Below, piece by piece: positions 21,108 to 26,980 of a stretch of 64,000 bases of DNA. The stretch is from NCBI RefSeq assembly GCF_004025585.1, contig NZ_QTZO01000004.1, positions 124,001-188,000 of the forward strand. Reading direction: 5' to 3'. Both the position numbers and the translations under genes were made by a program. Each line of letters begins with the position of its first letter. The first letter of the stretch is position 1. The stretch is from Pseudodesulfovibrio sp. S3 (GTDB lineage: Bacteria > Desulfobacterota > Desulfovibrionia > Desulfovibrionales > Desulfovibrionaceae). The notes under the pieces were generated by a model that saw nothing but the letters and a program-made list of their open reading frames with translations, had not been told where the DNA came from and made no database searches.

Positions 21108-21668
21108 ATGAAAAATTGGACCGGATATGTGGACGAACTTGCAGCGGTGTTGAATGCTCTTGTGGTTACGGACAGCGCAGGTGTCGAGATCGATACGAAT
21201 GAAGGCTTTGTTCGTCTCAAGCGGATGGTGGAAGCGTGCGGCAAGGACCGTCGGCGTGTCTATTTCGTAGGTAATGGGGCAAGCGCCTCCATGGCCAGCC
21301 ATTTTTCCACTGATCTTGCCAAGATGTCCGGCGTTCCTACCGAGGTCTTTACTGACCCAGCCTTGATCACGGCCACTGGGAACGACATGGGGTACGCTGA
21401 AAGTTTTGCCTTTCCGCTCAAGCAGCGTATGGTCGAAGGTGAAGTCTTGATCGGCATCAGCAGTTCCGGCAATTCGCCCAACGTGGTCGAGGCGGGCAAG
21501 GTTGCTCGACAGCTTTCCGGTTATTTTGCGACGTTTTCCGCCATGTCGCCCGACAATGCCATTCGGGGTATGGGTGATCTGAATTTTTATATTCCCGCCA
21601 AGACTTACGGGATGGCCGAATCGGGTCATGCAGCCATGCTGCATCGTCTTGTCGATCTGTTCAAATGA
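21108..21668 (+). CDS. gmhA: Phosphoheptose isomerase (SIS domain)
   Basis: A 186-residue SIS-domain protein of GmhA length. It shows VYFVGNGASASMASHFSTDLAK, GISSSGNSPNVVEA and a C-terminal HRLVDLF. GmhA converts sedoheptulose-7-phosphate to D-glycero-D-manno-heptose-7-phosphate in the cytoplasm. Placement after the HldE-like gene supports a heptose-nucleotide route. In GmhA the usual catalytic His sits near the C-terminus; HAAMLHRLVDLF may provide it. Confidence 0.85.
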   Translation: MKNWTGYVDELAAVLNALVVTDSAGVEIDTNEGFVRLKRMVEACGKDRRRVYFVGNGASASMASHFSTDLAKMSGVPTEVFTDPALITATGNDMGYAESFAFPLKQRMVEGEVLIGISSSGNSPNVVEAGKVARQLSGYFATFSAMSPDNAIRGMGDLNFYIPAKTYGMAESGHAAMLHRLVDLFK

Positions 21669-22898: not shown

Positions 22899-23747
22899 GT
22901 GAAAGATTCCATCCGGATTATTCATGAAGCCTCCATGGCCGCGCCTCTTGATGCGCGGTCCATGGAGTTGCGGCGCACGGTCGTGAACATGCTAGAGTGT
23001 GCCCAGCGTGGCCATATCGGCTCCACCATGTCGCTTATCGAGATCATGCGCGTGCTGTATGACGATATCCTGCGTTTTGACCCAGCCAACCCTGGCTGGA
23101 TGGACCGTGATCGCTGCATCCTGAGCAAAGGACACGGCTGTCTGGCACAGTATGTCATACTGGCGGACAAGGGGTACTTCCCCAGGGAACGGCTGAACGA
23201 GTTCTGTGCCTGTGACGGTTTGCTCGGTGGACACCCCAGCGCCAACAAGATTCCCGGCATTGAGGTTTCCACCGGTGCGCTCGGCCACGGCTTGCCCGTA
23301 GGGCTGGGTATGGCCGTTGACGCCAAGGTCCGTGGACGCGACAATCGTGTTTTCGTGATCATGGGCGACGGCGAATGCAACGAGGGTTCTGTATGGGAAG
23401 CCGCCTTGAGCGCCGGGAAGCGCGGGTTGGATAATCTTGTTGCGATGGTGGACTACAATAAATACCAGTCCTACGGCGAGACAAGTGAAGTCCAGGAATT
23501 GGAGCCGTTTGCTGCCAAATGGGAAGCCTTCGGTTTTCATTGTATCGAAGTCAACGGACATGATGTGAATGCCCTCAGAAAAGCGTTCAGTCGTGATGTT
23601 GTTGTTCCTGGAAAACCCACTGCAATCATTTGCCATACGGTCAAAGGCAAGGGTGTCGACTTCGCCGAAAACAATCTGGCCTGGCATCACAAAAGCAAGC
23701 TCCCTGCAGACGACATCACTGCCATGCGGCAGTGCCTCGAAGGATAA
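22899..23747 (+). CDS. Transketolase, N-terminal (ThDP-binding) subunit
   Basis: A 282-residue split transketolase half. ThDP pyrophosphate-binding motif GDGECNEGSVWEAAL ... DYNKYQSYG (GDG to N) lies at about residues 157-190, with SKGHGCLAQY and GALGHGLPVGLGMA earlier. Starts with GTG at 22899. Its partner begins 3 nt downstream, so the two make a heterodimeric enzyme that moves a two-carbon ketol unit. A dedicated pair in a glycan cluster suggests supply of sedoheptulose-7-phosphate for GmhA or two-carbon branching of a sugar. Confidence 0.87.
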   Translation: MKDSIRIIHEASMAAPLDARSMELRRTVVNMLECAQRGHIGSTMSLIEIMRVLYDDILRFDPANPGWMDRDRCILSKGHGCLAQYVILADKGYFPRERLNEFCACDGLLGGHPSANKIPGIEVSTGALGHGLPVGLGMAVDAKVRGRDNRVFVIMGDGECNEGSVWEAALSAGKRGLDNLVAMVDYNKYQSYGETSEVQELEPFAAKWEAFGFHCIEVNGHDVNALRKAFSRDVVVPGKPTAIICHTVKGKGVDFAENNLAWHHKSKLPADDITAMRQCLEG

Positions 23748-23750
23748 TCC

Positions 23751-24677
23751 ATGCGCAAGAAATGTCTTGAAATGGTCCATGAACTCGCTCGCAAGGATGA
23801 GCGTGTCGTTTTCATAGGTTCTGATCTCGGGTTCAAAACCTTGGACGATTTCCGTGATGAATTGCCCGACCAGTTCTTTGTGGAGGGCATCAGCGAGCAG
23901 AGCGTGGTTGGCATGGCCGCAGGCATGGCCCTGGAAGGACGCATCCCCTACGTCAATACCATTGCAACCTTCATAGTCCGTCGTGCCCTGGAACAGGTGG
24001 CCATGGATCTCTGTTTGCACGATCTGCCGGTACGCCTCATCGGCAACGGCGGCGGATTGGTTTACGCGCCACTTGGTTCCACCCATCTGGCCGTGGAAGA
24101 TATAGCTCTTATGCGAGCGTTGCCGAACATGACCATTGTCTGCCCGGCCGATGCCGAAGAGATGGAGCGGTTCATGGATGTGTCCGTGGATTGGCCGCAT
24201 CCGATTTATATTAGGCTGGCCAAGGGATACGACCCTGTCGTTACTGATCCAGATGTGCCGTTTGTTATCGGCAAGGGGCAGATTTACGCCGAAGGTGCCG
24301 ATGCGCTTCTGGTTACAACGGGCATCGGCCTTAGGATCTGTCGGGAAGCCGCAGCCTTGCTCCAGGAGAAAGGTGTCAACGCCACGGTCCTGCATCTCCC
24401 CACACTCAAGCCGTTGGATACCGAGATGCTTCTGGACTGCATTTCCAAAGTTAAGGTAGTGGTGTCCGTGGAGGAGCACACCGTCATAGGCGGACTGGGC
24501 AGCGCCGTGGGTGAAACCATGCTTGAAGCCGGATTCTGTCGTCCGTTCAAACGCGTGGGGGTGCCTGACGTGTTCCCGGATCATTACGGTACGCAGAATC
24601 AGATCATGGAACGATACGGCATCTGGCCTGAACCGCTTGTTGAAACCGTTACCGGGCTGCTCAAGGTCCAGGGATAA
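23751..24677 (+). CDS. Transketolase, C-terminal subunit
   Basis: A 308-residue partner of the upstream subunit: the pyrimidine-binding domain (EGISEQSVVGMAAGMALEGRIPYVNTIATF, with the conserved Glu that activates ThDP) and the C-terminal transketolase domain (VSVEEHTVIGGLGSAVGE). It is close in layout to DXS/transketolase C-terminal halves. Tight spacing on both sides (3 nt) implies translational coupling. Confidence 0.87.
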   Translation: MRKKCLEMVHELARKDERVVFIGSDLGFKTLDDFRDELPDQFFVEGISEQSVVGMAAGMALEGRIPYVNTIATFIVRRALEQVAMDLCLHDLPVRLIGNGGGLVYAPLGSTHLAVEDIALMRALPNMTIVCPADAEEMERFMDVSVDWPHPIYIRLAKGYDPVVTDPDVPFVIGKGQIYAEGADALLVTTGIGLRICREAAALLQEKGVNATVLHLPTLKPLDTEMLLDCISKVKVVVSVEEHTVIGGLGSAVGETMLEAGFCRPFKRVGVPDVFPDHYGTQNQIMERYGIWPEPLVETVTGLLKVQG

Positions 24678-24680
24678 GCT

Positions 24681-26315
24681 ATGCGCATCGGGGTGGACCT
24701 CGATAACACCATCATATCCTATGACGCCCTCTTTCGTCTTTTGGCGGATGAGGGCGGCTTTCTTGCAGACGATGGCATACGGAGCAAGAAAGAGGTCCGC
24801 GACACCATGTGGATTCAGGAGAATGGTCATCAAAATTGGACTGATATCCAGGCCTTGGCCTATGGCCCACGTATTGGTCAGGCAGAAGCTTTCCCCGGTG
24901 CGCTTGCCTTCTTCGAGTTCTGCCAACGGCAGGGTATTGATACCTGCATCGTGAGCCACAAGACAGAGTTTGCGGCCAGCGACCCGGACAGGACCTGCAA
25001 TCTGTGTACTGCGGCCATGAGTTGGCTCGAAAAAAACAGCTTTTTTTCGGCGGCAAGTTCCCTGACTGAAGACAAGGTGTATTTCGCCTCCACTCGGCAG
25101 AAGAAGGTGGATATCATAAAGGAACTTGGCTGTGATATGTTCATCGACGATCTGATCGAGGTCTTCGTGGAACCGGGATACCCCGGGCAGACTGAACAAA
25201 TCCTGTTTTTTCCTAAGGGGGTCAGGCCGGAAGCATTTACCGGCACGTTGTGTACCCACTGGGATCAGATGATCGCCAGACTTGACAGCAATGTGCTTGA
25301 TCCTGCTCTTAAGCCGCTGGTTGAAGCTGCGTTGGATGTTGAAATAACCGGGGCATCGGCCATCGGTGGTGGTCGAAACAGCCGTGTATTTCGTATTGAA
25401 ACGGAGCATGGTCCCTTTGCTCTCAAGCACTACCATGACCAGCATCGGTTGGATGCTGAATTTGCAGCTTTTGCCTTTTTGCAGGGACAGGGTGTGACCC
25501 TGGTGCCTGAGCCTGTAGCCTTGGACAGGGATAATCGGTTTGCTGTGTACAGTTTCCTGCAAGGGGGGGGGGTTTCAGAGGTCACAGACCAGGATATCCA
25601 TGATTGCATTGCTTTCATCAAAACTCTCCGGGAATTATCCGGGGGTGTAGGCGCTGGCGGTTTTGGTCCCGCTGCGGAGGCTTTTTTCAGGCTGATTGAT
25701 ATTGAAAAGAATATTCGAGACCGGGTGGCGCGGTTGGCTGGTCGGGCGCGTATCTCCGAGATGGAAAGCAGGCTGGAGGCATTTCTGCAGCAAAGATTCT
25801 TGCCTGCAGTGGAAGAAATGACCGCTCGTGCGCGGGCCGTGTATGCTGATATGGGCCTGGCCGTTGATTTTGAGATTCCTGCTTCGAACTGGATTCTCAG
25901 TCCATCGGATTTCGGATTTCACAACGCCATTCGTACTGAGTCAGGCCTGGCATTCCTTGATTTCGAATACTTCGGGTGGGATGATCCGGCCAAGCTCATC
26001 TCGGATTTTCTGCTTCATCCGGGCATGGACGTATCACTTGATTTGCGTGAGTCCTTTGGCCGTGGGGTACTCGCAATCATGGATGATCCGGCCCTGGAGC
26101 GCAGGCTCGGTGTTCTGTTGCCTCTTTTCGGCCTCAAGTGGTGCATGATCCTGCTTAACGAATTTCTCAAGACTGACTTTGACCGGCGTCGGTTTGCCGG
26201 TGCTACTGATGCTCGTTCCGAAGTACTTGAAGCGCAACTTGCAAAGGCGGAGCGTATGCTCAGACGAGCTAGAGCATACGCGCAAAGTGAAATCATTTTG
26301 ATCAGAAAAGGATAG
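24681..26315 (+). CDS. HAD phosphatase - APH-like kinase fusion with a G10 tract
   Basis: A 544-residue two-domain protein. The N-terminal HAD-like domain (about 1-200) has motif I VDLDNT (Asp6, Asp8). The C-terminal half (about 215-500) is an aminoglycoside-phosphotransferase/choline-kinase-like domain: FALKHYHD with the ATP-site Lys, a SPSDFGFHN catalytic-loop variant and LDFEYFG metal motif. A run of ten G (25563-25572, codons 295-298) lies in the kinase domain, and slippage there would frameshift the gene. One half could act as a GmhB-type heptose bisphosphatase and the other as a sugar kinase; this is inference. Confidence 0.72.
   Translation: MRIGVDLDNTIISYDALFRLLADEGGFLADDGIRSKKEVRDTMWIQENGHQNWTDIQALAYGPRIGQAEAFPGALAFFEFCQRQGIDTCIVSHKTEFAASDPDRTCNLCTAAMSWLEKNSFFSAASSLTEDKVYFASTRQKKVDIIKELGCDMFIDDLIEVFVEPGYPGQTEQILFFPKGVRPEAFTGTLCTHWDQMIARLDSNVLDPALKPLVEAALDVEITGASAIGGGRNSRVFRIETEHGPFALKHYHDQHRLDAEFAAFAFLQGQGVTLVPEPVALDRDNRFAVYSFLQGGGVSEVTDQDIHDCIAFIKTLRELSGGVGAGGFGPAAEAFFRLIDIEKNIRDRVARLAGRARISEMESRLEAFLQQRFLPAVEEMTARARAVYADMGLAVDFEIPASNWILSPSDFGFHNAIRTESGLAFLDFEYFGWDDPAKLISDFLLHPGMDVSLDLRESFGRGVLAIMDDPALERRLGVLLPLFGLKWCMILLNEFLKTDFDRRRFAGATDARSEVLEAQLAKAERMLRRARAYAQSEIILIRKG
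25563..25572 (+). repeat. Homopolymeric G10 tract in coding sequence
   Basis: Ten consecutive G residues encode three Gly and the first base of Val in the HAD-kinase gene. It is the longest G or C run I see in the window; others reach 7. Poly-G tracts of 8 or more switch surface-glycan genes in Campylobacter and similar bacteria by slipped-strand mispairing. Confidence 0.85.
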
Positions 26316-26320
26316 TGATC

Positions 26321-26980
26321 ATGGGTAAATGGCAAAATTTCATCACGCCGCTGCATACCAGCACTTCCAGAAAGTATCTTGACCGTATGGTGGACGAAAA
26401 GGTCCACTGCATGCTCAAGGCCAAGGAATACGAGGCCGATTACTGGGACGGTGATCGTCGTTACGGCTACGGTGGGTATCGGTACAAGGCTGGCCACTGG
26501 AAGCCGGTGGCCGAGGCCATGATCAAGGCTTACGACCTCAAGCCGGGTGCGCGAATTCTCGACGTGGGGTGTGGTAAGGCCTATCTTCTTTATGAATTGT
26601 TTCTCCTCGGCATGGAGGTGCACGGTTTTGATATCTCCAAGCACGGCCTGGCCGATTCCATGGAAGAAATTCGGGACAATCTGTTCATCCATCGTGCCCA
26701 GGCTCCCTATCCTTTTGATGACAACGAGTTTGATCTGGTTATCTCGATCACCACTTTGCACAACCTGGAGATTTTCGATTTGGAGAAAGCCCTTGGGGAA
26801 ATCGAGCGGGTGGGCAAAAACCACTATATCTGTGTGGAGAGCTATCGCAACGAACTGGAACAGTTCAATCTCCAGTGCTGGGCGTTGACCTGTGAATCCT
26901 TCTTCAGTAAGCCCGAGTGGGAATGGGTTTTCAATCATTTCGGGTATACGGGCGACTACGAATTCATCTACTTCGAATAG
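26321..26980 (+). CDS. Class I SAM-dependent methyltransferase
   Basis: A 219-residue methyltransferase with motif I ARILDVGCGKAYLL, the acidic residue in HGFDIS, and a DLVISITTLHNLEIFDLEKALGEI segment. ATG at 26321 has AAAGGA 8 nt upstream and is preferred to GTG at 26315, which overlaps the previous stop. Next gene is a radical SAM 9 nt away. Acceptor unknown, probably a sugar intermediate or carrier. Confidence 0.82.
   Translation: MGKWQNFITPLHTSTSRKYLDRMVDEKVHCMLKAKEYEADYWDGDRRYGYGGYRYKAGHWKPVAEAMIKAYDLKPGARILDVGCGKAYLLYELFLLGMEVHGFDISKHGLADSMEEIRDNLFIHRAQAPYPFDDNEFDLVISITTLHNLEIFDLEKALGEIERVGKNHYICVESYRNELEQFNLQCWALTCESFFSKPEWEWVFNHFGYTGDYEFIYFE

Follow-up and report, generated by a model that had tools for sequence, protein, structure and literature searches.

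In Campylobacter, poly-G/C tracts, taken at a cut-off of 7 or more, have lengths that peak at 9 and 10, and in C. jejuni tracts of length 10 lie within the varying range, according to the available portion of PMC6321876. In the available text of Orsi et al. 2010 (PMC2831843), poly-A and poly-T tracts are described as over-represented and near gene starts, and poly-G/C tracts as generally under-represented. Among the papers listed in our searches of the literature, mostly outside subscription journals, none has a title or opening of an abstract that describes a poly-G or phase-variable switch for the Desulfovibrio group. The paper richest in mentions of Desulfovibrio (PMC12579266) uses a phase-variation term, in its available text, once with reference to DNA methylation and once in the reference list.

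Here we analysed a run of ten G (G10) inside a HAD–kinase fusion gene, probably for a surface-sugar enzyme, of the sulfate reducer Pseudodesulfovibrio sp. S3, located in a window of 64,000 nucleotides (the whole stretch of DNA that was analysed; Table 1). This run is probably a passive mutational hotspot, recent and lineage-specific and lying in a fast-diverging gene, with an evolved contingency switch being the less likely reading. The tract reads GGG GGG GGG G(TT) in the frame of ORF 24681-26315 (codons 295–298), at 54% of the gene length and inside the Pfam APH match, and such an in-frame G10 has the length expected of a homopolymer that switches a phase-variable gene. No homopolymer of any base exceeds it in the 64-kb window, where A/T runs reach 8 at most and the runner-up G or C runs are of 7 (three G, one C). 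Counting of the sequence and a homopolymer scan of the window thus confirmed the original prediction in its position and length of the run (25563-25572) and in its next longest G or C runs of 7. In the genome as a whole, counted on both strands, four runs have a length of exactly 10, so that G10 is tied for the longest G run. The same gene also contains two more homopolymers of 7, in an A7-CAGC-T7 hairpin at 25030–25047 with an unremarkable fold z-score of −1.13.

Table 1 Features of the window and further long runs placed in Pfam-supported genes of the same genome (L labels)
Feature	Location	Strand	Remarks
Transketolase N-half gene	22899..23747	+	PF00456; conserved neighbour of HAD–kinase genes
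Transketolase C-half gene	23751..24677	+	PF02779, PF02780; directly upstream of HAD–kinase gene
HAD–APH fusion gene, 544 aa	24681..26315	+	HAD-like N-terminal part and APH-fold kinase part; open as assembled with ten G
G10 homopolymer	25563..25572	+	Codons 295–297 (Gly-Gly-Gly) and first base of codon 298 (Val)
Methyltransferase ORF	26315..26980	+	From ORF list; Pfam methyltransferase families; listed start overlaps HAD–kinase stop codon
Long antisense ORF	22992-25562	antisense	From ORF list
In-gene run	L017		Metallophosphoesterase; Pfam-supported
In-gene run, G9	L018 5001-5009		WbmS-like polysaccharide deacetylase; Pfam-supported
In-gene run	L022		Chemoreceptor; Pfam-supported; run at codon 9, predicted gene start uncertain
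In-gene run	L024		CotH kinase; Pfam-supported
In-gene run, C9 on coding strand	L025 5001-5009		GT9 family gene; Pfam-supported
In-gene run	L027		UvrA-like; Pfam-supported
In-gene run	L029		M20 peptidase, G-sense; Pfam-supported
In-gene run	L030		Cys/Met PLP enzyme; Pfam-supported

The kinase part of the protein matches Pfam PF01636 (APH) over residues 226–437 with an E value of 6.3e-12 and a score of 46.2 bits, above the curated cut-off of 23.2. At a threshold of 0.001, the 544-aa protein matched none of the Pfam HAD families and none of the NCBIfam models. Its N-terminal part resembles HAD-only proteins in the protein search and carries a DxDNT motif, which we take to be a HAD-like signature; among the matches listed, related proteins with HAD Pfam matches are P0049 (PF00702) and a few with PF12710. 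Corramycin phosphotransferase (8agy) matches the family profile weakly (E 0.00067); in this match the run aligns with the G of a G-E-x motif, and the G10 site is presumably in the putative hinge region of the kinase. The 90% database cluster of the protein (P0001) comprises 2 member sequences on 2 contigs. Genome G049 encodes a fused HAD–kinase relative that is 66% identical (65.5%), and in six of the eight genus genomes having a match, HAD and kinase are two separate matches.

Homopolymers in general slip more often than other sites. In the computed frames, a tract of nine G leads to a stop after residue 322 and a tract of eleven G to a stop after residue 307, so that a one-base slip causes a frameshift inside the kinase domain, as originally predicted. 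Both forms keep the HAD part and lose the conserved SDFGFHN (409–415) and DFE (427–429) motifs; on these frames, a one-base indel would be expected to switch the kinase part off. Since the next ORF overlaps with the stop codon of the HAD–kinase gene, polarity would be possible. A downstream effect of losing the kinase gene is plausible from this gene layout, and any polar effect would reach the methyltransferase ORF first.

Truncation in both slip frames, together with a tract length in the switching range and a sugar-type gene cluster, is what would be seen at a true contingency locus, in which, in the manner of Campylobacter poly-G genes, slippage at G10 during replication reversibly toggles a full-length and a kinase-less HAD–kinase, changing the surface glycan and perhaps lowering the expression of downstream genes. 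We consider this unlikely, and one point against it comes from the protein database. Among the 120 matches listed of 367 in a protein search at N-terminal length, no high-identity truncated form was found: all but the own protein were at most 65% identical, and the best eight others were HAD-only proteins of 205–209 aa with up to 65% identity. The lack of length variants is judged here from one assembly and clustered proteins.

Slippage could also act during transcription or translation, for which an in-frame homopolymer is a general substrate. The gene would then give a fixed mix of full-length and truncated protein with the DNA unchanged. The separate HAD and kinase matches in six of eight matched genus genomes fit this explanation, since they suggest that a HAD-only product could be useful; against it, RNA folding predicted for the surroundings of the run gave nothing unusual (z 0.29) and the run is unshared by relatives (see below), and we regard it as very improbable.

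To compare the homologous site, we aligned 20 proteins: 18 relatives picked from the 120 matches listed, plus the protein of the window and the copy of it in the database (P0001). Gly295 is invariant in all 20 (one being the own database copy), and none of the 18 chosen relatives has Gly at residue 296 or 297. Proteins P0002–P0008, which are 63–68% identical, show no alignment gap at this site; the number of codons is therefore unchanged, and their residues at 296–297 rule out GGG codons (DNA viewed for the copy of G049, P0005). In G049 the site reads GAA GGG GAA CCG GTT, versus CAA GGG GGG GGG GTT in the window. A DNA comparison of the site comprised 94 other rows, six of them repeating the place of another row and none above 66% identity, and the run was not kept in these: over the aligned stretch, their G runs reach 5 at most.

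Owing to this absence from relatives, the run would have arisen in this lineage, by substitution. We infer from the relatives that two non-Gly residues after the invariant Gly were replaced by GGG-coded Gly-Gly through substitutions. The resulting G10 probably lies in a weakly conserved loop within the kinase part. Slippage there to G9 or G11 would cut the protein short of its kinase catalytic loop, with the HAD part remaining. That two non-conserved residues both turned into GGG-coded Gly also speaks for a contingency locus, against which stands the run being common to none of the 94 other rows.

The alignment also bears on the accuracy of the tract. A sequencing or assembly error, with a true run shorter or longer than ten, would be conceivable in a draft assembly of 43 contigs, and some genus genomes contain very long or flank-repeated G-runs that look like artefacts. 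Such an error is nevertheless very improbable here: with ten G, the conserved C-terminal half is read in frame, and an error other than a multiple of three would break that frame; the ungapped alignment to P0002–P0008 speaks against a multiple of three; and inspection by eye revealed no repeated flanks around G10.

Comparison with G049 (L182) revealed synteny from an HldE-like gene through a radical SAM gene, the two differing farther downstream. The HldE-like, GSU2086, SDR, methyltransferase and radical SAM proteins and both transketolase halves are 83–90% identical, the exceptions being the SIS protein (21108-21668) and the HAD–kinase (24681-26315), each at 65%. The HAD–kinase gene has a pN of 0.226, versus 0.06–0.09 for the seven conserved neighbours, and a dN/dS of about 0.13 on near-saturated dS. 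As judged from these values, the protein is constrained, but more loosely than the seven conserved neighbours. Looser constraint would make a chance run easier.

We then placed the tract among the G/C runs of its genome (3,678,351 bases, 43 contigs; draft assembly), counted on both strands. Overlapping windows of 7, 8, 9 and 10 G number 286, 102, 27 and 4, from which 109, 52, 19 and 4 runs of exactly these lengths, and none of 11, were derived; 23 runs are of at least 9. The ratio of runs of at least k+1 to runs of at least k declines from 0.41 to 0.31 and 0.17, which speaks against a separate class of long runs. A peak at 9–10 was looked for in the own-genome run lengths and is absent, with a monotone fall over 7–10, and this weighs against a contingency locus. 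At the density of the own genome, a G10 is expected in ~7% of 64-kb windows by arithmetic. Selection for switching would thus not be needed, and G10 would fit the ordinary tail of the G-runs of the genome.

Markov models were fitted to 259,468 bases (the window and 20 stretches, with selected runs masked). Order 1 gave an expectation of 25 runs of at least 10 and 86 of at least 9. Orders 2–5 gave 1.7–2.7 runs of at least 10, versus 4 seen, with a Poisson tail of about 0.09–0.28 (hand arithmetic); the 4 seen are compatible with chance and not clearly above these higher-order nulls. For runs of at least 9, orders 2–5 gave 8–12, versus 23 seen. This ~twofold excess indicates that something beyond short-range composition favours such runs, and it counts somewhat towards a contingency locus. 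Shuffling of synonymous codons in the 14 cluster genes produced a G run of at least 10 in 85 of 4,000 trials, and in 35 of 4,000 in the HAD–kinase gene, which suggests that a chance G10 would be uncommon per cluster and unremarkable genome-wide.

The 23 runs of at least 9 were placed with a greedy longest-ORF rule plus Pfam, rather than a gene finder. Nine lie in Pfam-supported genes, with G on the coding strand in six and C in three, and one lies in an ORF without a Pfam match (L021). The remaining 13 lie outside longer genes, elsewhere or in ORFs that are short or were placed without Pfam, the last applying to the ORFs at L013, L015, L020, L023, L026 and the second L028 run. Two placements in ORFs lacking Pfam matches were rejected: the opposite strand at the G10 of L028 holds Pfam-supported genes, so that this run falls between genes, and the C9 of L029 is carried as G-sense by the Pfam-supported M20 peptidase on the opposite strand. 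Near a contig end in L016, a C10 (5001–5010) and a C9 (6964–6972) are each followed by the same 15 bases and are perhaps a repeated element; an IS200-like transposase lies ~0.6 kb before the C10.

This distribution bears on the contingency locus in two directions. Only one of the four G10 runs, that of the HAD–kinase gene, was placed inside a Pfam-supported gene, and two more glycan-type genes contain 9-base runs (G9 in L018, C9 in L025). Sugar-type genes thus account for three of the nine in-gene runs, a hint for the switch reading from numbers too few to test. Against it, the L018 run is likewise missing from its 62% relative, and from four more distant relatives.

The original expectation that poly-G tracts of this length would be unusual in a Desulfovibrio-like genome was not supported: 34 of the 36 genus genomes, own included, contain at least one run of at least 10, some of them very long and artefact-like. 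Runs of at least 11 were searched in eight of the 36, chosen by counts. We fetched 20 stretches with 21 runs from G041, G002, G010 and G015, a set that leaves out places in G016, G024, G043 and G050 and one in G015. In the one-contig genome G041, runs of 12–24 (L158, L159 and L161) are flanked on either side by repeats of similar sequence (by eye; nine stretches viewed) and look like assembly joins. In G015, runs of 16 and 18 lie nine bases apart (L175 4001–4043) inside a called glycosyltransferase ORF, past its Pfam domain and with C on the coding strand, in surroundings that appear terminator-like by eye. Pfam matches were obtained for three of ten ORFs in the fetched genus stretches, and no contingency gene was established among these long-run stretches. 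Five genomes (G003, G007, G018, G047 and G051) have 10-G window counts of 78 to 433, suggesting very long G-runs, and G003 has runs of 83 and 34; these very high counts are probably sequencing artefacts.

The neighbourhood of the gene was compared across the 80 best of 290 HAD–kinase loci (L031–L110), found in genome contigs with this protein as query. Within the fetched flanks, the transketolase N half is present at 79 of the 80 and the C half at 75 of the 80, and in 77 of 79 loci fewer than 300 bases separate the end of the HAD–kinase gene from the N half that follows it. The reversed layout, with the HAD–kinase gene after the C half, occurs in this window and in UBA4079 (L031). By record title, the 80 best loci come from Desulfovibrio, Chlorobiaceae, Woesearchaeota, Planctomycetes and others. 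This recurrent adjacency points to a conserved sugar-building cassette of HAD–kinase and two-gene transketolase, with no description of it among the papers listed. We speculate, on the basis of branched-sugar pathways, that the cassette may add a two-carbon unit. Transketolases are proposed for two-carbon transfer in miharamycin and amipurimycin in the available portion of a review (PMC12247030).

A more specific form of switching would have poly-G slippage in a free-living, Pseudodesulfovibrio-type sulfate reducer toggle only the kinase half of this conserved transketolase-linked sugar cassette, with the HAD half always made. The surface glycan would thereby vary, perhaps allowing phage escape; we put this forward tentatively and hold it to be distinctly unlikely.

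Taken together, the mid-gene position, the unshared run and the missing 9–10 peak lower the switch reading, which still draws some support from tract length, coding strand, the setting among sugar genes and the modest excess of runs of at least 9. Support for an evolved switch is weak. The phase-variation switch of the original prediction was therefore not supported, given the lack of a 9–10 peak, of the run in 94 other rows and of a high-identity truncated form among the 120 matches listed of 367. A hotspot and a switch both predict length variants, and differ in the frequency of these, in their persistence across strains and in phenotype. If switching is true, an environmental sulfate reducer would carry a contingency locus of the poly-G kind. 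If there is no switching, the locus serves as a warning: at such base composition, a sugar gene will occasionally contain ten G in a row, and run-length statistics and relatives should be checked before contingency loci are called.

Compared with the phasome genes of Campylobacter, as described in the available portion of PMC6321876, this locus is similar in having a coding-strand G10 in a sugar-type gene that single slips would truncate. It differs in that its genome has no 9–10 peak and under half of its long runs are placed in genes; unlike in the phase-variable genes of Campylobacter, the run is unshared by relatives, and no length variation was seen in one assembly and clustered proteins. 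The kinase part resembles APH-fold small-molecule kinases in matching PF01636, the match of 8agy being weak, and differs from them (8agy) in its fusion to a HAD-like part and its sugar-type cluster, in which nothing suggesting drug resistance was seen. Unlike the tracts in the available text of Orsi et al. (PMC2831843), the homopolymer here is poly-G and lies at 54% of the gene; like them, it is a homopolymer within a coding gene that would be able to inactivate it.
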